NCBI RefSeq assembly: GCF_000150955.2
Contig: NC_011693.1
Location: 1 to 64,000 of the forward strand
Reading direction: 5' to 3'
Source of the DNA: Phaeodactylum tricornutum CCAP 1055/1
Lineage: Eukaryota; Bacillariophyta; Bacillariophyceae; Surirellales; Neidiaceae
DNA: 64,000 nucleotides
Under the pieces are notes generated by a model. It searched no databases. It saw only the letters and a program-made list of their open reading frames with translations, and had not been told where the DNA came from. This document shows positions 1 through 13,003 of the stretch, in pieces (positions within the stretch are counted from its first letter, which is position 1; each line of letters starts with the position of its first letter). The position numbers and the translations under genes were made by a program.

Positions 1-233
1 CCTAACCCTAACCCTAACCCTAACCCTAACCCTAACCCTAACCCTAACCCTAACCCTAACCCTAACCCTAACCCTAACCCTAACCCTAACCCTAACCCTA
101 ACCCTAACCCTAACCCTAACCCTAACCCTAACCCTAACCCTAACCCTAACCCTAACCCTAACCCTAACCCTAACCCTAACCCTAACCCTAACCCTAACCC
201 TAACCCTAACCCTAACCCTAACCCTAACCCTAA
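1..233. repeat. telomere, CCCTAA repeats
   Basis: About 39 uninterrupted copies of CCCTAA fill the first 233 bases, with the C-rich strand 5' at the left edge. That is the orientation expected of a left chromosome end (TTAGGG toward the 3' end of the other strand). No variant repeats or subtelomeric satellite lie between it and the next sequence, which is copia pol. Confidence 0.97.
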
Positions 234-3200
234 TTTTGGATGTGTTCCAAGCGTTGGACATGACGGGTGACTTACAGGACCCTTCGTTGCTGTGTCCGAA
301 TCAATTGCGGGCAAATGGTGTAATTGTGGATGATGTCCCCAAACATTTGTGTCACAACCGCGAATCAACTCACTCTATTTATATTCCTGAGATGAAATTG
401 CGTATTTCTTTGGAATTACAGGGAGTTATGTCAGGGTTCCAGGCACGGTTGCCTACCCAGACGGAGATTGAGACTTGCGTTCATGTCAAACTCACTGCAC
501 AGGAAGCGTGGGATCCTAGTTCCGACGAGCTGGAACAACAAGAGCGTTTGAAGGAGACTCAGTTGTCTAACGTAGCTGGCACCGTGTCTACGTTATTTCC
601 CGATCGAAAATCGGAGATCTCAGCAGTCTTATCGTCCATCAGCTCTACGCTTGTGGATGATGACTTTGTTTGCGGAATGGAACAGTCTGTTCGGATCACA
701 TCGGCTGTGGCTAGTAGTACTGTGCGTACCAAGTCGCGGCACACAACGATGGAACCAATGGAGCTATCGCGTCGTTGGGGCATTGGCCTCTCGACGGCAC
801 GGAAAACTTTGAGAGTGACAACCCAGAAAGGTTTGCGGACTGCTGTCCACCCGTTGCATCGCCGGTACCGCACGCAACAGCAGCAGCTTCGTTACAGTCG
901 TCTGAACTCCAAATTTTATTCTGACACCATGTTTTCTTCATCGGTTTCTGTGCGAGGCAATACTTGTGGGCAAATCTTTGTGAATGATTTGAACTATAGT
1001 AAGTTTATACCGTTGAAGAGCAAGGGTGACGCCGGAATGGCGTTGGAAGAACTCTTTCAAGACATCGGGGTGCCAACGCATATGCACACCGACGGAGCTA
1101 AAGAGCTCACCACTGGGCACTGGCGGAAAGTTTGCCAGAGCTACGGTCCGGTGAAGCAGACCATGTCTGAACCACTGACCCCGTGGCAAAACCGGGCGGA
1201 ATCGGAGATCCGGGAACTCAAGAAACAAGTGCTTCGTATTATGTCCCATGAGGGTATTCCGCAAAGATTTTGGGATTATGTTGCCGAGTATGTTTCGGAG
1301 ATTCGGTCTCGGACTGCTCACCCATTGTACAATCTCAAAGGTAGGACGCCCATCGAGCATGTTGCGTCGGACGACAAAAGGTTGGAAGCTTTTGATTCAA
1401 TGGAAAGACGGGACGTCCACGTGGGAGCGCCTTGCCAACCTTAAGGAATCAAACCCTGTGCAAGTTGCTGAATATGCAGTTGCTAACAAGCTTGCAGAGG
1501 AACCGGCCTTTATCTGGTGGATCAAAGACGTTCTCCGACGTCGCGATCGGATTATTTCTAAGGTAAAAGCTCGGTACTGGAAACGCACTCACAAATTTGG
1601 TATTCGTGTTCCCAAGTCCGTAAAGGAAGCTTTGGAGATTGACGCGGAAATGGGGACCGATTTCTGGAAACGTGCAATCGAGAAAGAGATGGCAAACGTT
1701 ATGCCAGCATTCAAGTTCCTCGAAAGGGACGAAAATCTCCCGGTTGGTTGCCAAAAAATTGATTGTCATATTATATTTGATGTGAAACTCGATTTGACTC
1801 GCAAGGCACGGTATGTGGCTGGGGGACACATGACGGAAGCACCGGCGGCGTTGACTTATTCGTCGGTAGTGTCTAGAGAAAGTGTACGGATTGCATTTAT
1901 GGCGGCAGCGTTAAACGGGTTGGACATTTTGGCGGCGGATGCGCAGAATGCTTATCTAAACGCGGATTGTCGGGAAAGTGTGTATACCATTGCGGGTCTG
2001 GAGTTTGGTGCAGCTAGACAGGGGCTTCGAGTGTTAATTGTTCGAGCACTATATGGTTTAAAGAGTTCCGGCGCGGCGTGTCATGCGCACTTAGCGCAAA
2101 CAATGTCTGATTTGAAGTTTCGACCCTGCGTGGCGGATCCTGATGTTTGGTTGCGACCTGCTGTCAAAGGTAATGGGGACAAATACTATGAATATGTACT
2201 CATTTATGTTGATGACATTTTGGCAGTTTCAGAGAAGCCGGCTCGGATTATGGAAACGTTATCAGGTCTCTATAAGTTTAAAGAAGATCCGAAGACCCGG
2301 AAGAAGTATGGTCCTCCCGATCGTTATTTGGGTGCTAACGTTGGAAAGTATAAATTGCCAGGAGCTACCAAAGAGCATTGGTATATGAGTTCGGACGACT
2401 ACGTGAAAGCTGCGGTAACTAATGTTGAAAATGAGCTTTTCAAAGTTGGGCAGAGGTTTACCACGCGGTCAGGACACACCGTTATGTCGCAATCGTACCG
2501 TCCGGAATTGGATGTGTCGCCTGTGTTGGGAGCGGACAAGGCTAACTATTACCAGAACCTAATTGGAATCTTGCGATGGGCAGTTGAATTGGGGCGGATC
2601 GATATCTTTGCGCAAGTTTCGATGTTGTCGCAATTCCTCGCTCAGCCCAGGGAGGGACATTTGGATCAAGTGTTCCATATATTTGGGTATCTAAAGGTGC
2701 ATGGACAATCTAAAGTTGTTTTCGACGATACGTTTATTTCGTGGAAAGACAAGTTTACTCAGTGTGATTGGCAGGATTTCTATCCCGATGCGAAGGAACC
2801 GATTCCAGGTAATATGCCGGAGCCTCGTGGAAAGGAAGTTCAGTTGAATGCTTTTGTTGATGCTGATCATGCGGGCGATCAGGTGACGCGTCGTTCGAGA
2901 ACGGGTGTTTTGATATTTGTGAATAAAGCACCGGTGATTTGGTTTTCGAAACGACAGAACACTGTCGAAACGTCTACGTTTGGTTCGGAATTTGTTGCAA
3001 TGAAGATTGCGACGGAGCTGTTGATTGGTTTGCGGTACAAACTTCGAATGATGGGTTTGCCTCTGGATGGACCGGCGAATGTTTTCGGGGACAACCAATT
3101 GGTAGTTACCAATGCGTCGCGATCGGAGTCGGTTTTGAAAAAGAAACATGTTAGCATTTGCTATCATCGGGTGAGAGAAGCGTGTGTGGCCAACATCATT

Positions 3201-3302
3201 CGGATTGCTCATGAGAGTACCAAAACAAACTTAGCGGATTTGCTAACGAAGAATTTGGATGGTCATTGGATTCAAGAATTAGTTTCGAGGATCTTGTATT
3301 GA
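234..3302 (+). mobile_element. Ty1/copia (CoDi-type) relic cut by the telomere
   Basis: Pol region of a copia-type LTR element, read on the plus strand. Parts recognised in order: an integrase core (about 900-1370), reverse transcriptase with a YVDD active-site box (about 2205-2220), and RNase H with a VDADHAG motif and a later DNQL box (about 2850-3130). This order (integrase before RT) is diagnostic of Ty1/copia. Gag, protease and the 5' LTR are absent: the telomere begins where they should be. The element is a broken fossil. No 3' LTR boundary could be fixed. It belongs to a different lineage from the element at 7596-9571. Confidence 0.9.
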
Positions 3303-3878
3303 CTTTATTTGGGTCCCTTGCTTCGGAAGAAGCATCGTACCTCCCACCATGCGGAATTGCATTACAAGAGTGGGTTTCTGTGAGCGTTGTTACAACGTGG
3401 ATATGATTTTTATATTTGTTTTTAAAGACGGTTGTTGATTTGGTTGTTGATCATGGATTTGGTTGTGATCCCAGGAGCTGGACGGATTGTTTGGTCACCT
3501 TATCATTCTGAGTTACGAATAATAATGTGAGGGGACTGAGCAAATCTAGTGGTAGTGGATCTGGTGATGTGACATAGGTAGTATGTCGCAACCCCTATAA
3601 TTTAACCTTGTGTTGCGTATCATCACGTCCTGTATGGAATGTACTGTAAATATGGACCTACGTATCCACTACGGTGAGATTAACAGAATAGGACGTGAAT
3701 AAGCCAGAAAATTTCAACAGAAACCAAACATCCACATATGCTGCGTACAATGGAAGGCAAATTGAAGATAACACCTGAAAAATTCACGACGCGAACAAGC
3801 CGTTTTTACCCGCAAGATTTTTTTCATGGTACGCAGTTGCAATGGTCAAAACAGAAGATGATGGTATGACCAAAACCA
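3303..3878. other. 3' tail of the copia relic, unresolved
   Basis: No gene is seen. The stretch after the copia pol has a short purine-rich run near 3525-3538 that could be the element's polypurine tract, followed by unassigned AT-leaning DNA. An LTR would be expected here, but no second copy exists in the window to define it. Confidence 0.45.
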
Positions 3879-3891
3879 CGTCCTAAAAATA

Positions 3892-4520
3892 CTAACTGCG
3901 GGAACCGTGATCAAAGTTGTCCGGCTGGGAAGCAATTGGCTGTGTTTGTTTTGACATTGGTTGGGATTGGTTGTGTTGATGCTGTCTGCGGTAACAACAA
4001 GAACAGCGGCGATGACGACGAGAACAGCGGCGACGGCAACGGCGGCAGCGCCAACAACAACAATGGTGAAACCAAATTTGTTGATTTGGGACAAAGTAAA
4101 CCATTTGTTGGCTGAAACTGCCCACATGTGCTGTCAAAAGACACAAATGCAAGCGTGCCGTTCGGAGCGAACGAAGGGATTTTCGACGATGGAAAAAGCC
4201 GTGCTGCGATCGCAACGTAGGAAACGGAAGGCAATGATACCAAAGCCGTATCCTGCAAATCAAGAATGATAGATATCCTTCCAGTTGCGAAGGATTGATC
4301 AAAGTTGGTGTCGGCAAAGTAGCAGTTGTATTGGGTCACTCTATCTGTGACAGCAGGAAACCTTGCTTGGCTCCAGTAGCCCACGAGTTCTGCTGTCCGT
4401 CGCAAACAAACCATGATGGGAGTGACCAAGAAAGTTGCAGATACAGGCAGTGTGGGGGGTTGAACAAGTAATGCCAAATAGAATCCACAATAGAAATAGA
4501 AGATAAATTAATCATCAACA
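3892..4520 (-). pseudogene. decayed membrane-protein-like gene piece inside copy 1
   Basis: On the minus strand this stretch can be aligned by eye with 6217-6720 of copy 3 at the peptide level, although the open frames are broken. Shared features are a hydrophobic segment near the start, then short blocks around GQQ.S, and a C-terminal stretch of matching length that in copy 3 ends in YGSRTWYL. Copy 1 has also gained a run of simple codons (about 3990-4060). Similar decay in two copies suggests one gene fragment carried by the element. I do not recognise the parent gene. Confidence 0.35.
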
Positions 4521-4767
4521 AAATGCAACCAACATGTGTTTAGAACGTCTACAGATACTACAAGCAAATTGAGAAAGCGTAACAAATTCTAATGTTAAAG
4601 AAGACTACTTGATGCTATTTCTGTAGAGCCCAGGCTATCAATAGGGCCAGCACAACTGTTTCGTATCGCTCACTGTCAATTTGGTACGTCGTTTGCTTCT
4701 TGCTCGACCGTCGCTTGTTTTGTTTGCTTTCTTCCCTGATTGTCCTACGAGGCGTCCAATTCATGCT

Positions 4768-4953
4768 TTAGCGCTTCTTCGAACCACTGCCAATATCCTG
4801 CTCCCGGTGCACAGCTTTCACCTGCTCCTGGATTTTCTTGTGGAAGGATTTTACATCGTCTTCCCCCTTCCGGGAAGTCACACAGCAGCGGGCGAGTCTG
4901 TTAAAAATGAAGTACCAGCCAGATTTCGTAAAACGCTCCGAATTTCGCTTCAA
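4768..4953 (-). pseudogene. charged helix fragment inside copy 1
   Basis: A minus-strand reading contains a charged helical peptide (KSFHKKIQEQVKAVHREQ). A closely similar peptide (KSFYKKIQEQMKAAHQER) can be read on the same strand of copy 3 near 7010-7060. Conservation at the peptide level in two diverged copies suggests a second piece of a captured gene, probably from a coiled-coil region. No family is recognised. Confidence 0.3.
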
Positions 4954-5243
4954 ATCAGCAACCTACATCATCACTAGTCTTGTCCGGTGGTAGTTAGGTA
5001 TACCCGCAAAAGATGTCCGCGGTTGATGGAATTCTCATGCTGCATCGTAGCTGCAAGCATGATGCCGTCCGTGTAAACAGTATAGAAAAATTCGAAGAAA
5101 AATCCTGTAGAAGCTGTATTGACAGCAAGTTTTGTACTCCAGAGTCAGAGAACGGCTGTACGTATGGCCGACAAAGCCACACAAAGTGCTGACGCAAACG
5201 CAATTCGCAAGGAACAACAGAAAGCTGTATGCCGGACGTTGGC

Positions 5244-5700
5244 AGGTTAGGTATCCCAGAGGAGTAGCTCGAACCCTATTTGATATCCCAGAGGGAATAG
5301 GTGATATCCCAGAGGAAGGATATGATATCCCAGAGGGAATATACGACACAAACAATTCGCGGAAGAACAGCTGACTGTGAATGTGAAAGATGTGTGCCGG
5401 ATGTCAGCAAGTTAGGTATCCCAGAGGAGTAGCTCTAACCCTATTTGATATCCCAGAGGGAATACTTGATATCCCAGAGGAAGGATATGATATCCCAGAG
5501 GGAATACACGACACAAACAACTCGCGGAAGAACAACTGACTGTGAAGGCTGTATGACGGACGTCAGCAAGTTAGGTATCCCAGAGTAGTAGCTTAAACCT
5601 TATTTGATATCCCAGAGGGAAACCCTGATATCTCAGAGCATAACCCTGCTATCCCAGAGGGATTACTTAGACATCCCAGAGGGAAACCCTGCTATCCCAG
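5244..5700 (+). repeat. 165-bp direct repeats of copy 1
   Basis: Repeat starts (A/G-GTTAGGTATCCCAG) fall at 5244, 5409 and 5568, giving periods of 165 and 159. Each unit holds several GATATCCCAGAGG motifs and one TGACTGTGAA motif. One frame reads DIPEG repeats, but every unit ends that frame with a stop, so the array is not coding. Confidence 0.9.
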
Positions 5701-5782
5701 AGGAATTACTTAGGAAGAGTTTTTGGATAAATTTTATAAAGCGATGTATATAGTTACTACTCTGGGATACCCCTCCCCTTAG
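5693..5782 (+). repeat. terminal inverted repeat (hairpin) of copy 1
   Basis: TATCCCAGAG at 5693-5702 and its exact reverse complement at 5760-5769, 57 bases apart, followed by 13 bases ending in TTAG. The left arm is the last member of the direct-repeat motif series. Confidence 0.8.
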
Positions 5783-6206
5783 GGCGGCGTCTGTGCTTAA
5801 CAAAGGTGACGCCTTTGCAGTCATACCAGGATGTATGGCAGCGGTAGCTCTAGTTGCGGTAGTGGGAGAAAGACTCCATACGGTCAGTGCTGGTCTGACA
5901 TGGATTTAGGATGAATTTGTTAGGTGGAAAAGTAAACTTATCGATGATCCAAGAGAATTCCTTAAACAAGAGACAAACCATGTTGAAGATCCCAGAGCCA
6001 TTACTTATTAAAAAGACAAACTGTGTTGAAGATCCCGGTGCATTTACCTACGCAAAAGACAAACGAAGTTGAAGATCCCAGTGCAATTATTTACGCAAAG
6101 GACATGGCATGTTGAAGATCCCGGTGCAATTACTTAGAAATAGTTTTTGCATGAATTTTATCCAGCCAGGTATACCCTTGCTTCTCCGGGATCTTCCTGC
6201 CCTTAG
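5783..6206 (+). mobile_element. hairpin-ended repeat element, copy 2 (short)
   Basis: Only the right end is recognisable as the same kind of element. Four direct repeats of a unit containing GAAGATCCC (about 5983, 6028, 6069 and 6113) are followed by the inverted repeat AAGATCCCGG/CCGGGATCTT (6115-6124, 6186-6195) and then CCTGCCCTTAG ending at 6206. The left 200 bases (5783-5980) match nothing else in the window. It lies head-to-tail between copies 1 and 3 with no spacer seen at its right end. Confidence 0.55.
6115..6206 (+). repeat. terminal inverted repeat (hairpin) of copy 2
   Basis: AAGATCCCGG at 6115-6124 and its exact reverse complement at 6186-6195, 61 bases apart, then 11 bases ending in TTAG. 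The stem sequence differs from copies 1, 3 and 4 in both arms. Confidence 0.75.
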
Positions 6207-6216
6207 GAATCGCGTC

Positions 6217-6720
6217 CTAAAGATACCAAGTACGGGAACCGTAGTCAACCAGCATCCGTCGACCTGGGTCAAATAAAACCTTTTGTTGGCCGCAGCTACC
6301 CACTATGCTGTCACAAGGCACAACAAATACATGTCCTTTGGGCCCGACAAATGCCGCAATATTTTGGACAATGGAAAATGCCTTGCTGCAATCGTGACGG
6401 AGAGAACCGAAGTTGAAATTGAAGCTGAAGCCGCATCGGATAAATGAAAATTGCGGGAACTGTTGGCAGATATCTTTCCGGTTGCAAGGGGCTTGCCAGT
6501 GTTTCATTTGACCAAAGCTGGTGTTGGCAAAAAAGCAGTTGTATTAGGTCACTCTATCTGTGACGGAAGGAAACCTTGCTTGGCTATTGTAGCCTGTGAG
6601 TGCTGTTGTCCGTCACTCATGACCCTTTCCCTACCCATGATGCAAGTGATGAAGAAAGATGCGGATGCAACAAGTATCACCAAATAGAAACCACAATAGA
6701 AATAGAAGATAGAATAATCA
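6217..6720 (-). pseudogene. decayed membrane-protein-like gene piece inside copy 3
   Basis: The best-preserved frame (6217-6507, minus) reads about 96 residues with spaced cysteines (CNRKDIC, FGSLRHDC, VVPCD, GSCGQQ) and ends in YGSRTWYL and a stop close to the element's left end. Upstream, a hydrophobic segment (about 6640-6710) lies in another frame. It matches 3892-4520 in copy 1. The cysteine spacing hints at an extracellular or lumenal domain, but I recognise no family. The frame is interrupted, so the gene is not functional as it stands. Confidence 0.35.
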
Positions 6721-7527
6721 TCAAACAAAATGCAACCAACATGTGTATAGAGCAGCTATAGATACTACAAGCAAACTGAGAAAGCGTAACAAAGTCTAGC
6801 TTTAAAGAAGACCACTTGATGTTATTCCTATAGAGCCCAGGCTGTCAATATGGCCAGCGCAACTGTTTTGTATTGCTCGATTTGGGACGTCGTTTGCATT
6901 TTGCTCGACCGTCGCTCCTTTCGTTTGTTCTCCTTTCTGTTTGCCCTACAAGGCGGCTAGTTCTTGCTTTAGCGCTTCTTCAAAATTCTGCCGCTCCTGG
7001 TGCGCAGCTTTCATCTGCTCCTGGATTTTCTTGTAGAATGATTTGAAATCTTCTTCCCCATTCCGGGGAGCAACAAAAGAGCGGGCGGGTCCGTCGCGAA
7101 ATAAGCACCAGATTTCGTAAAACGCTCCGAATTACACACCAAATCACCACACTGCATGATCACCAGTCTCATCTGGTGTTAGCCTACCCTATCCGCAAAA
7201 AATATCCGCGGTCAATGCTGTTCGCGTTCTGCATTGTAGATGCACACATGGTGCCGTGAGTGTTTCTGTTGTAAAATTTGAAGAAAGAAAAATTCGCTAC
7301 TAGCTAGAAGCTGTATCAACGGCGAGTCCATTTCGGCCGACACTGACTGTTCACAGTTGTACGTAAGCAACACAAAACACAGACGCGATTTACGGAAGAA
7401 CGACCGACTGTGAAAGGTGTTCGCCAGACGTCAGCCAGTCAGGTATCCCTGTGGAGTAACTTTCACCCTTTTTGAATCTCAGTGGGAATTTTTTGGATCC
7501 CAGTGGCATGCGTTAAGTAAAAAATGA

Positions 7528-7595
7528 ATCCCTGTGTAAAGATAAAATACACATTCATGTATAAATTTACTACACAGGGATCTCCTTTTGCTTAG
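7528..7595 (+). repeat. terminal inverted repeat (hairpin) of copy 3
   Basis: ATCCCTGTGTA at 7528-7538 and its exact reverse complement at 7571-7581, 32 bases apart, then 14 bases ending in TTAG. Confidence 0.8.
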
Positions 7596-9571
7596 GGTAA
7601 ATTGTATTTAGTAAATGTTGACAGTAATCATGCTCCTGACAAGGTTGCTGAAATACCTGCTCCTGAAGCAGGGAGGATGGAAAGTGATGCTAGTGATGCT
7701 CCAGAAGCAGTTGCCATCAATAGACCAAAAACAACGCGTCTTGAGCGAGAGCTGAAACTCCTCAAGTCACCATTTCTTAATCCAATGAGCGGAATGGAGT
7801 CAGTGACGGTTGTTGACAACACTGGAAACACAGACAGTACGGAAACAACGAAAGAAAAAGAAATCTACTTTGTTTTTAGTGCTGAGCTCTCATCGGATCT
7901 GGGGGAACCGAAGACACTGAAACAAGCAATCAACGGAAAAGACAAGAGCAAGTGGATACCATCGGTTAAGAGCGAATTTATGAATTTCATAAGCAGGGGA
8001 GTGTGGAAGAAAGTCAAACGCAAAAAAGTGAAAGCTCTTGGACGAAAACCGTTGGGCACAAAGTGGGTATTTAAAGTCAAAGTTGAACAGGATGGTAGCA
8101 AGCAATACAAGTTGAGATGCGTTACACTGGGATATCTACAGATCCCAGGCATGGATTTTACCGAAACCTTCTCGCCTGTTGCTAGTGACTCTACAATTCG
8201 AATCGCTCTCGGAGTCTTTCTCTACAAGGAGAAACCAAAATCTTGGGTTTTGGAAATGATTGACATCGAAGCAGCTTTCCTAGAAGCTGACCAGGATTGA
8301 CCAGTCTACATTGAATGGCCGGAAGGAATGATAGAACTTGGATTCATCTCGAAGGACGACGCGGAAGAATATTGCTGTGAACTTAACAAAGCGATGTATG
8401 GGAACGTTGACGCTCTGCTACAGTGGATGAAGACTTTTGCGAATTTCCTGATGAGTGATGTAATGGACATGAACCAGAGTTTGGCTGATCCATGCATGTT
8501 CTACAAGAAAGACGGAAAAATTGATCTAGTTTTACTTGTGGTTGTCTTTGTGGACAATGTTTTACTTGGCGGAACGGAAAAAATGGTCAAGTGGTTCAAA
8601 ACAAAAATTTCGACGAGATTCAATTTTACTGATCTCGGAAAGTTGCGAAAACATTTGGGTGTCTGGTATGAGTGGGGAAGAGACAAAAACGGAGATACTT
8701 TTATCAAGGCAACAATGGATTCACTTATTGACGAAACAATTGAAGCATTTAGAAACATGACTGGACACTATGCATCAGCAGTTTCTATGCCTGGTTATCC
8801 AGGGAAAGTGCTTCAGAAACACAAAGGGGAAGAACCAGTTATGTTGGACAAATTTCGGAGTCTCACGGGGAAAATCATGTATGTGGAACAAAAAATTATG
8901 CCCATGATTGCTAACGCGGCTCGCAAACTCGCTCAACACATGTCACATCCAGGTGAAGAACACTGGAAAGCCCTTGAATGTTTGGTTGGATACTTAGGCA
9001 CCACAAAAGGAAAAGGACTTATTTATCGAAGACCAAAGGAGTTGCAATTGGTGAGCTGGGCGGATTTGAACTACGCGACAAACGAAGATACGCGACGAAG
9101 TGTTTCGGGTATCATTAACACGCTTGGAGGAGGAACCATCACAAATTGGACATCGAAAACTCAAGCTACGGTCACATTATCAAGCATGGAAGCAGAATAT
9201 CTTAGTCTCTTGCTGTGTACGCAAGATTTACGTTTTACGCAAATGCTCCTCAACGAGATTGATACTTCAGTAACCCCAGGTATTATACACGACGACAACA
9301 CGGGTGCAATTTTTCTGGTCAAGAACTCTCAAGTTGGATTCCAAACCAAACACATTGATGTGCGGCACCATTTTATTTGAGAACTATTGAAGGCAGGATT
9401 GCTTTGGGTAATTTTCACTCCATCAGCAGAGAACCCTTCGGACTGCGGGACCAAAAATTTGACGGAAGATTATTTTTAAAATTTGAAGCTGCAATTCAAG
9501 AAGGACGACTTCTGGACTTCTGGAGGGAGGATGTTAACGAGAGTGGTACGACGGCAGACGAGCCCGCATGA
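7596..9571 (+). mobile_element. Ty1/copia relic, second lineage
   Basis: Plus-strand copia pol remnant. The RT entry block reads IPGMDFTETFSPV (about 8140-8175), the typical copia RT N-terminal signature. The RNase H part carries SWADLNYATNEDTRRS, SSMEAEY and the tail KHIDVRHHFI (about 9055-9380). Gag, protease and integrase are absent, and the relic starts exactly at the end of the hairpin element at 7595. It is a broken fossil with a few breaks. Its peptides are much closer to classical plant/fungal copia than those at 234-3302 or 13004-18557, so it comes from a different lineage. Confidence 0.88.
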
Positions 9572-9918
9572 GGACGTACAAGTAGGGCTCCAATATCCAT
9601 AAGTCCAGAGCTGAAACTATGCCAGTGACTAACTAAGACTCTCACGACCACAGTCACCGACAAAGTATAAGCGGAACTTACCCAAACGATTATCAAACAA
9701 CCCAGTGAAAGGTTATATGACCAAATACATAAAAAGCGTGATGGATGCTACGATTGAATGACTGGCATACAAAAGACCAGCATCCCAATACAGGAAGTAG
9801 ATAGAAACGTAATGTGAAGCAACTCAAAACTTGGAACAAGGTAACGAACGGAACGGTTACATCTAGGTTAGGCAGTAGATACGGATAATCTACTGGGAAC
9901 GAACGAGTATTTCAACAG
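9572..9918. other. unassigned, probably tail of the copia relic
   Basis: No gene, no RNA and no clear LTR are seen here. The sequence lies between the copia RNase H region and the left limit of homology of the next hairpin element. Confidence 0.4.
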
Positions 9919-10100
9919 CCATCCATGTGAACAGTATAGAAAAATTCGACGAAAAAATCCTGTAGAAGCTGTGTATTGGCAGCAAGTTTTGTACTCCAGA
10001 GTCAGAAAACGACTGTACATATGGCCAACAAAGCCACACAACGTGCTGACGCAAACGCCATTTGCAAAGAACAACAGAAAGCTGTATGCCGGACGTCGGC

Positions 10101-11060
10101 AGGTTAGGTATCCCAGGGGAGTAGCTCGAACCCTATTTGATATCCCAGAGGGAATAGGTGATATCCCAGAGGAAGGATATGATATCCCAGAGGGAATACA
10201 CGACACAAACAGATCGCGGAAGAACAGCTGACTGTGAATGTGAAAGCTGCATGCCGGACGTCATCAAGTTAGGTATCCCAGAGGAGTAGCTCGAACCCTA
10301 TTTGATATCCCAGAGGGAATACATGATATCCCAGAGGAAGGATATGATGTCCCAGAGGGAATACACAATACAAACAGATCGCGGAAGAACAGCTGACTGT
10401 GAATGTGAAAGCTGTGTGCCGGACGTCAGCAAGTTAGGTATCCCAGAGGAGTAGCTCGAACCCTATTTGGTATCCCAGAGGGAATAGGTGATATCCCAGA
10501 GGAAGGATATGATGTCCCAGAGGGAATACACGACACAAACAGATCGCGGAAGAACAGCTGACTGTGAATGTGAAAGCTGTATGCCGGACGTCAGCAAGTT
10601 AGGTATCCCAGAGGAGTAGCTCGAACCCTATTTGATATCCCAGAGGGAATAGGTGATATCCCAGAGGAAGGATATGATATCCCAGAGGGAATACACGACA
10701 CAAACAGATCACGGAAGAACAGCTGACTGTGAATGCGAAAGCTGTATACCAGACGTCCGCAGGTTAGGTATCCCAGAGCAGTAGCTCTAACCCTATTTGA
10801 TATCCCAGAGGGAATACTTGATATCCCAGAGCAAGGATATGATATCCCAGAGGAAATACACGACACAAACAATTCGCGGAAGAACAACTGACTGTGAAGG
10901 CTGTATGCCGGACGTCAGCAAGCTAGGTATCCCAGAGTAGTAGCTTTAACCTTATTTGATATCCCAGAGGGAAACCCTGATATCTCAGAGCAAAACCCTG
11001 CTATCCCAGAGGGATTACTTACTGTTAGACATCCCAGAGGGAAACCCTGCTATCCCAGAG
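10101..11060 (+). repeat. 165-bp direct repeats of copy 4
   Basis: Repeat starts fall at 10101, 10266, 10431, 10596, 10761 and 10920. Four periods are exactly 165 and the last is 159. Units are mutually near-identical, so the array was amplified recently or homogenised. Each unit carries three or four GATATCCCAGAGG-type motifs, a CGCGGAAGAACAGCTGACTG segment and ACGTCAGCAAGTTAGG. Confidence 0.93.
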
Positions 11061-11140
11061 GAATTACTTAGGAAGAGTTTTTGGATAAATTTTATACAGC
11101 GAGGTACATAGTTCCTACTCTGGGATACCCCTCCCCTTAG
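11051..11140 (+). repeat. terminal inverted repeat (hairpin) of copy 4
   Basis: TATCCCAGAG at 11051-11060 and its exact reverse complement at 11118-11127, 57 bases apart, then 13 bases ending in TTAG. Identical in layout to copy 1. Confidence 0.82.
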
Positions 11141-11438
11141 GACATCCATACTACCCTCCGTTACCTTGGTGTACCAGTGACAGGAAAGACAATCTTGTTT
11201 GGTGACAACCAGTTGGTGATTACTAGCTCAACAGAACCTTAGTCACCCATAAACAAGCGTCATAATGCATTGTCCTATCATCGCGTTCGTGAGGCAATTG
11301 CAGCAGGAGTTGTTGATTTCCAGAAAATCTTGGGAGCCGAAAACGTGGCGGATGTGCTCAGTAAGCACTGGGGTTTTCAACAGGCATGGCCAGTCCTTAA
11401 GCCACTCTTGTTCTGGCAAGGTGATACATCAAATTGTG
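11141..11438 (+). mobile_element. Ty1/copia (CoDi-type) RNase H fragment
   Basis: Short plus-strand relic of the C-terminal end of copia pol, with GDNQ-type and YHRVREAIAAGVV peptides. The same peptides occur in the minus-strand element at 13004-18557, so both belong to one family. Its left limit is the end of the hairpin element at 11140. The fragment is a fossil. Confidence 0.85.
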
Positions 11439-11720
11439 TGTTACGTAGTACAACCAACGTACGTACGAAAGACAGGAAAAACGCAGTTTCGACAAAGTCT
11501 GGTAAACGAAGGTTGGGCGTTATTACGAACGACCTGTGATACACCTAAGCAAGCCTAGGGACTGTAAAACTCAACTTGCTTATGACGCTCCCCACGGGTT
11601 AGACAGCGGATACGAGGACCTATGCTAATGCAATATTTGGATCAATGACTTTCTAAAACAATGAGAGGAAGATTATTCTACTACTAGTCCATCAGGCTAG
11701 GGAGGTCCAGTTCACTGGAC
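11439..11720 (+). repeat. 282-bp LTR-related block
   Basis: This block recurs in direct orientation inside both LTRs of the neighbouring element (12387-12668 and 19222-19503) with only a few differences. More decayed, inverted versions lie near 20370-20640 and 21400-21800. It begins TGTTACGTAGTAC and ends TTCACTGGAC. Confidence 0.8.
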
Positions 11721-11721
11721 T

Positions 11722-13003
11722 ACCAATGGATTGTTCTTCAAAAAGAATACTACTTATGGGTTCGGGTCCTTCGCTGTATACTATAGCGGACTTCGTTAGT
11801 ATGACCCTACACCAGTGAACAAAGCTAGCACTGGTACACTCACTTCTACCTCCGTAGGTAGTGTCCTCGGGGACTGACGAGGGTTTGATTAGCCCCCCCC
11901 CCCCCCCCCCGGCACTGCTTTAAGCCGGGCAGTAAGTCCGTCTCAACCGGAATCAGGGCTGAGGTCTTCAGGCCTATTGGTATTTCTACCTCACCTGACT
12001 AGAGCAACCCGTAGTCACGAAGCGGCCCTGCCGACAAGCCCTGAAGACTCCAAGGGGGTTTCGGCACCGGCGACTCCGAGGAAGTAGGGAAGCCACGAGT
12101 AACTTACCGAAAAACCCTGTAGCAGTACTAGTGGGTCCTCGGTACCAGTTAGCGTGAGGAAGTAGGGAAGCGGCTTTCAAACAATGTGTCGCACAAGCCG
12201 ATAAATATCACCTTAAGTGATACCTCTGACACTTATACAACACGAATGGATGTAAGCGATTAGTTCTCAAAATTCACGGAGCTCGTGGAAAATTGAGAAC
12301 GACCTTAAGTAGACTTAAGGGTGTTTACCAGTAACGACTGTGCAAATGAGCAGCAGTGGTTTGACGTGCTGTCAAGACTGTTAATCTGTTACGTAGTACA
12401 ACCAATGTACGTACGAAAGACAGGAAAAACGCAGTTTCGACAAAGTCTGGTAAACGAAGGTTGGGCGTTATTACGAACGACCTGCGATACACCTAAGCAA
12501 GCCTAGGGACTGTAAAACTCAACTCGCTTACGACGCTCCCCACGGGTTAGACAGCGGATACGAGGACCTATGCTAATGCAATATTTGGATCAATGACTTT
12601 CTAAAACAATGAGAGGAAGATTATTCTACTACTAGTCCATCAGGCTAGGGAGGTCCAGTTCACTGGACTGCCGTTACCATGTTCCAGATAATCTTACTCA
12701 CATGTACAAGTCTACTTCTTCTAAATATAAATCCCACACAGAATCTTGTAGCGAGTATTCATCCCTCCTTGATTACTCCCTCATAATTTGTGGGACTGGA
12801 TCCTATCATTCATTTGTATAATCCTTTCCTGTATCCTCTTCCAAAGGATTCCCATAATCGTCCCGCGAATACATCGTGTCGTACAATAAGGCCGACACAA
12901 ATTCAACGGTTCCATCGCCATCCTCAACATGATCACCACCCACGTTCCTGTTGGTATCTTTTACCTGTCGCACAGACATGTCGCGATGGTGTATACCGTA
13001 ACA
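11722..13003 (-). repeat. 3' LTR of the minus-strand copia element
   Basis: About 1282 bp, near-identical to 18558-19838. On the element's sense strand it starts TGTTACGGTATAC right after a polypurine tract (GATGGGGAG). It contains a run of 18 C (11893-11910) and the 282-bp block at 12387-12668. I count roughly eight mismatches against the other LTR, so the two are more than 99% identical, which points to a young insertion. The left boundary is set only by where the two copies stop matching. Confidence 0.8.

Follow-up and report, generated by a model that had tools for sequence, protein, structure and literature searches.

Subtelomeric repeats of Phaeodactylum tricornutum as probable truncated parts of a telomere-linked-helicase-like mobile element

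Four stacked elements at a contig end

The window analysed here, 64,000 nucleotides of Phaeodactylum tricornutum CCAP 1055/1, is the left end of contig C25 (C25:1-64000); searches covered the genome's 27,450,724 bases in 88 contigs. The window opens with telomere repeats (AACCCT telomeres are given for this species in the accessible text of PMC9266582), followed by four copies of a repeat, elements 1 to 4, interspersed with fragments of Copia retrotransposons. Each copy lacks its outer part and ends inward in the same layout, with direct repeats (iterons), an inverted repeat with a wide loop, a short tail and TTAG.

1..233, + strand: CCCTAA telomere repeats (233 bases), at the contig end
234..3687, + strand: Copia retrotransposon fragment, outside the element; reverse-transcriptase match at C25:1737-2345; outer cut directly at the telomere repeats
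3688..5782, + strand: element 1, family A, without outer part; arms 5693-5702 / 5760-5769, loop of 57 bases, inner terminus TTAG 5779-5782
5220..5702, + strand: direct repeats of element 1, ATCCCAGAG iterons in 165-bp units; the final iteron is the left arm
5760..5782, + strand: right arm of element 1 (inverted iteron), tail and TTAG
5783..6206, + strand: element 2, family B, without outer part; arms 6114-6124 / 6186-6196, loop of 61 bases, TTAG 6203-6206
6207..7595, + strand: element 3, family C, without outer part; arms 7528-7538 / 7571-7581, loop of 32 bases, TTAG 7592-7595
7596..9917, + strand: Copia fragment, outside the element; reverse-transcriptase match at C25:8040-8783
9918..11140, + strand: element 4, family A, without outer part; 165-bp repeats from ~10077 to 10890, arms 11051-11060 / 11118-11127, loop of 57 bases, TTAG 11137-11140

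The perfect stem and TTAG that a first-pass annotation had proposed for each copy were verified letter by letter in all four. Its spacing of 11-14 bases before TTAG holds only if TTAG itself is counted, the tail from right arm to TTAG being 9, 6, 10 and 9 bases in elements 1 to 4. Element 1, which had been taken to start at 3879, is instead cut at about 3688 by a Copia long terminal repeat (LTR), and its relatives extend further outward. A site rule requiring a 10-bp perfect inverted repeat, a wide loop, 5-12 bases and TTAG found exactly four sites on the + strand of the window and none on the - strand; the mean in 30 first-order Markov random windows was 0.17 and the maximum 1.

The outer Copia fragment is closed near 3686 by an LTR-like end, ...GATTAACA, that is common to contig C20, and the inner one finishes in an LTR-like TGTTAAC...TTCAACA at ~9532-9917 (both ends were seen in the sequence). 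This inner fragment is the target of element 3 and is itself inserted in element 4, which abuts a further Copia piece from 11141.

The inner terminus and its joins across the genome

Loci were gathered by DNA similarity to the window copies and merged into segments, to which all end counts apply; the final count of termini used patterns of right arm plus tail, with TTAG not required. It gave 114 ends (29 of family B, 25 of H, 22 of C, 16 each of A and G, and 6 of D), with TTAG at the expected place in 110. The repeat family with one recurring end layout, postulated from four copies, is thus real and extends far beyond the window, and the outcome named as its refutation, a lack of further copies, did not occur. 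Among the 114 ends there are 100 distinct inner flanks, and the base next to the terminus is G in 91 of these. Of 84 ends on the numbered contigs (C1-C33), distributed over 18 contig ends, 83 face inward, with the nearest contig end behind them. Since the accessible part of the telomere-to-telomere paper gives 25 chromosomes for P. tricornutum, not every contig end is a chromosome end. Copy 4 also has three weaker matches deep within a contig, at C12:422298-422819. Two stretches in viral contigs fit the pattern, and none was confirmed as a relative. A separate repeat, ACGAAAGTATGCGGGATCCTTTCGGTTCCTTAG, is found together with conserved sequence at six places, one or two letters differing (C17:694, C18:6809, C23:505572, C48:13028, C60:172160 and C11:21535); it is not an element end, because the conservation continues beyond its TTAG.

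Covariation of the arms was analysed in 63 of 67 unique termini, which reduce to 25 unique arm sets from a handful of independent families, with relatedness uncorrected. The arms of a terminus agree with each other at a mean of 8.52 of 10 positions. When right arms were reshuffled the mean was 7.95 and the maximum 8.40, and none of 5000 reshuffles reached the observed agreement. Iteron and inverted iteron therefore co-vary between sub-families, as first proposed, and the further claim that pairing of the stem has been kept holds in part. Strict pairing is contradicted by family G, which matches at 8 of 10 positions in 11 of 12 termini and at 4 in the remaining one, by family D, with one mismatch in three of six termini and five mismatches in one, and by family B, with one mismatch (G-T) in 12 of 17. 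The stem covariation is, thus, real but partial. In family H, which lay outside this test, the core ATCCC becomes AACCC or AACTC, with GGGTT on the right, a change that strengthens the case. Folded as single-stranded DNA, copies 2 and 3 are far better than shuffles (z -4.68 and -4.81), and copies 1 and 4 are no better (z 0.01 and -0.59). Covariation need not mean a hairpin, because a protein that binds the iteron in both orientations would yield the same pattern; inverted protein-binding sites account for it as well as a hairpin does.

The target rule comes from the 62 of 100 flanks for which an element-free homolog is available. Of these joins, 56 fall at G|G (two at G|A, two at T|G, one each at G|T and A|G), against a background GG frequency of 5.3% in the segments. 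The base preceding the target G is T in 30 cases, A in 23, C in nine and never G, which places the join at the start of a G run; one or two matching bases precede the join in 44 of 48 joins. For 61 of these joins the sequence further out was searched for the other half of the target. There were 17 raw matches, 16 of which were other, uninterrupted copies running into flank-like sequence, so that one join is a real candidate for a regained outer half and the remaining 60 yielded none.

Neighbouring joins were compared where they lie less than 7 kb apart, and support was called collinear where their spacing is about that in another copy. In 51 of 72 such pairs the outer element is joined, collinearly, into the body of the inner one; some of these 51 represent block duplications (C45/C53 and C17/C60, for example). 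The window itself follows the same order: element 2 received element 1 at TTG|GGC, a site that C14 has in uninterrupted form; element 2 is joined into the leader of element 3, and element 4 to Copia sequence that is uninterrupted in C19. Element 3 adjoins its Copia fragment at a flank for which no uninterrupted homolog was found. At C18:1-305, what is left of a B terminus is its last ~30 bases, on which CCCTAA repeats sit directly, so that telomere repeats close a worn element. Composite ends occur in C4, C24, C19 and C10. At each of them a terminus of family B or G abuts an identical 18-base piece of H arm and tail that closes with TTAG; the four continue into four different flanks, and the first terminus in C10 reads TTAA. 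This may reflect a preference for the GG in the H arm as target, or else the H end may have moved the composite as a unit.

The inner terminus is, therefore, precise: some 100 different flanks meet it, in most cases at G|G, and joining takes place at one end only. Near contig ends the elements form head-to-tail stacks of a single orientation, in which the outer parts are eroded and here and there closed off with telomere repeats. The inward orientation, the G|G joins, the outer target half regained only once in 61 joins and the 51 outer-into-inner joins together show that joining is one-ended addition onto truncated ends.

A helicase gene in the longest copies

The minus strand of the longest element, C24:448-6810, belongs to an open frame of 1420 codons, the ~31 final ones of which arise from reading on into the H tail and B element joined there; no other coding frame was recognised in this element. 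Because the longest copies carry this gene, the copies in the window represent truncated pieces of a coding element, and the non-autonomous family that had been suggested is not supported. The protein matches the Pfam domains DEAD (3.3e-12) and Helicase_C (3.5e-7), both over the cut-off; RecQ_Zn_bind (0.017) and weak C2H2-type zinc-finger matches fell below it. In a PDB sequence comparison the helicase part was weakly like Helicase_C proteins (best E 0.00055). The gene is, accordingly, predicted to encode a zinc-finger SF2 (RecQ-like) helicase, read towards the telomere. All ten related open frames of at least 180 codons on C16, C18, C19 and C24 read outward. Of nine copies whose outer cut lies in the available sequence, eight are cut at a TTAG join (C8:1002306, C16:751414, C16:761713, C18:305, C19:2178, C19:8820, C19:686407 and C24:447) and the ninth, C19:215, at telomere repeats.

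The helicase gene evolves under constraint. The ratios of nonsynonymous to synonymous change (dN/dS) against C24 were 0.29, 0.59, 0.27, 0.33, 0.25, 0.38, 0.23 and 0.11 in eight pairs, the 0.59 stemming from a near-identical pair (dS 0.045), and a ninth pair has no synonymous change. These values suggest that the protein is kept by selection, though several copies are broken: five of the nine compared contain no stop and four contain one each. Identity to C24 falls to 49% in the N-terminal part of C16:748123-748830 and to 53% in that of C19:2179-3024, against more than 90% in the rest of the protein; in C16 the central part is at 94% and the helicase part at 93-97%. Both divergent copies lie in elements with H-family ends (C16:745785 and C19:5366), which would fit an N-terminal recognition part that changes with the iterons, a suggestion drawn from two copies only.

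Domain searches revealed no nuclease, Rep or recombinase in the element, the control of the Helitron Rep search being silent, and its protein has no Pfam match to DUF3505. The central region, with a predicted fold of pLDDT 29, has no match in Pfam, PHROGs or PDB. It contains VRHFFAS and QSHHAPSTHASTY, which by eye resemble recombinase boxes II and III as we take their pattern to be. A possible tyrosine-recombinase (Crypton-like) identity has this resemblance by eye and no database match, and was not adopted.

Several features of the surroundings were recorded alongside. A complete Copia with 722-bp LTRs lies at C19:676759-684447 inside a helicase element whose uninterrupted form is seen in C24 near 3854-3860. 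Within the window's outer 12 kb, all Copia fragments (234-3687, 7596-9917 and 11141-11560) read inward, as do 11 of 15 RVT_2 matches less than 10 kb from a contig end on the numbered contigs (a hand count in which 150 of 207 candidates were scored, taking left ends plus the right ends of contigs of known length). Deeper in the contigs the orientation of RVT_2 is mixed, in numbers too small for a conclusion. A run of about 16 or more C occupies 11896-11911 of the window, in the subtelomere just inward of element 4.

Nature of the element and how it may spread

Taken together, the four window repeats are probably truncated inner parts of a subtelomeric mobile element that resembles the telomere-linked helicases (TLH) and has a transposon-like terminus. 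The order we favour, inward from the chromosome end, is a helicase gene on the opposite strand, a leader of ~2 kb, iterons, the inverted iteron, a tail of 6-10 bases and TTAG. No description of such an element was found in the one open-licence library searched; most subscription papers lie outside that search.

The closest known genes are fungal TLH, such as DHX_G198 of Colletotrichum higginsianum, which likewise encode an SF2/RecQ-like helicase, lie subtelomerically in the same orientation to the telomere and form several sub-families (PMC5576322, accessible text). The likeness is drawn from domains, place and orientation as described for fungi. That text, however, presents the Colletotrichum TLH as full-length copies that occur singly and have TTAGGG motifs and DUF3505. 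The element described here, in contrast, occurs as many truncated copies in stacks; its inner terminus is exact, it has iterons and a GG target, and DUF3505 was not detected. To our knowledge, DUF3505 is not a feature of all TLH genes. The Y' elements of Saccharomyces are likewise subtelomeric and tandem, with a helicase gene and internal tandem repeats, but they move by homologous recombination and often have telomere-like sequence between copies (PMC13177704, accessible text), whereas here exact joins lead to unrelated sequence.

Wear or breakage of a chromosome end would set off movement. The iterons of a family would be recognised by that family's zinc-finger helicase protein, which may act together with a nuclease or recombinase, and the terminus would be fixed at TTAG|G. 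A copy extending to the donor's telomere could then be joined to, or synthesised from, the broken end at GG, and the element would spread by capping worn ends. We propose only tentatively that it represents a class of DNA element that lives by capping chromosome ends, with its own zinc-finger helicase, possibly including a recombinase-like central domain, reading the iterons and adding the element at GG.

Several observations weigh against a mobile, end-adding element. One end among the 84, C11:21267, points outward; copies on C31 sit 37-40 kb from the contig end; and an old-looking, weaker group lies at ~422 kb inside C12, a contig of at least 668 kb. An ancient fusion of chromosome ends or a join made in assembly may account for this group. 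At C44:38932-39089 a C fragment lies between two H pieces with a common 18-base stretch, the sole case with both sides of a target. The outward sequence examined reached the contig end for 26 of the 62 flanks only, and 21 of the 72 neighbouring pairs are without collinear support. Neither an intact outer end nor a complete helicase gene was seen among the copies. None of the sought nuclease, Rep or recombinase domains turned up in the element. The part of the helicase protein in joining is suggested by linkage alone.

The geometry of the joins is accounted for equally well by terminal retrotransposition, which we nevertheless consider rather unlikely. On this explanation a + strand RNA ends in the iteron/inverted-iteron structure and ...CUUAGG, and a worn 3' end in CC pairs with the GG and serves as the primer for a reverse transcriptase supplied from elsewhere. 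HeT-A shows the same geometry of one-ended addition, outer truncation and stacking, as do FoTeR, MoTeR and telomeric Penelope-like elements as far as the accessible accounts describe them. One-ended addition, an inward 3' end and outer truncation are all found here if the + strand is taken as sense, in a geometry like that of FoTeR and the Mycosphaerella telomeric elements with their tandem stacks (PMC12857005 and PMC4522978, accessible text). The GG rule agrees with a CC primer, Copia reverse transcriptases are plentiful in the genome, and Ty1 is reported to reverse transcribe Y' RNA (PMC13177704, same text). Unlike the telomeric retrotransposons, however, this element contains no reverse transcriptase, carries the sole gene found on the opposite strand and has no inner telomeric repeats beyond TTAG(G). 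The three RVT_1 (PF00078) matches in the genome (C7:931954, C7:935560 and C13:547766) lie outside the element and presumably away from contig ends, and the A copies lack exceptional folding (tested as DNA).

The likeness to Helentron/HINE elements that the first-pass annotation had drawn is not supported, and a Helentron-like rolling-circle transposon, with a variant end TTAG, a variant target G|G and outer halves lost later by erosion, is very improbable. Internal tandem repeats are present, and we take an inverted repeat near a short 3' end and a two-base target without duplication to be features of Helitron, Helentron and HINE elements alike. Subtelomeric Helitron-like elements with PIF1 are also described in Oscheius tipulae (PMC8022731, accessible text). 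PF05970 (PIF1), however, had no match in the genome, with a control positive in three genomes, and the helicase found is of the DEAD/Helicase_C type; the PIF1 search may miss intron-split genes, since a cellular Pif1 would presumably be expected. PF14214 (Helitron_like_N) had no match either, weak evidence given that its control was silent too, nor did PF02689, a poorly suited model whose control was positive in one. Free insertion, moreover, is not expected to give 83 of 84 ends in one orientation and both target sides in one of 61 joins, and the one-ended, end-confined joining, wide loop and G|G target also differ. The element is, thus, not shown to be a Helentron. EDTA labels 0.54% of the P. 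tricornutum genome as Helitron, according to the accessible part of the genome paper, and this fraction might include the element.

Plain subtelomeric recombination or break-induced replication without a dedicated end, by which Y' elements spread (PMC13177704, same text) and which would agree with the blocks common to the ends C17/C60, C45/C53 and C5/C14/C16/C23, can be given hardly any weight, because 100 distinct flanks meet one base of the element and homology beyond GG is short.

Subtelomeric helicase genes recur in fungi and yeast, and we know of no agreed reason for this. About 100 flanks now show an exact end, a target rule and an order of layering, which makes a dedicated mechanism of movement testable. 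If the tentative proposal of an end-capping DNA element is true, the element would be the DNA-based, end-specific counterpart of HeT-A, and would suggest a role in mobility, and not one as passengers of recombination, for telomere-linked helicases elsewhere. Capping chromosomes by repeated joining onto worn tips would be a mechanism little known so far. CCCTAA telomere repeats persist in this genome, and the stacks are also a readable record of how its chromosome ends were lost and repaired.

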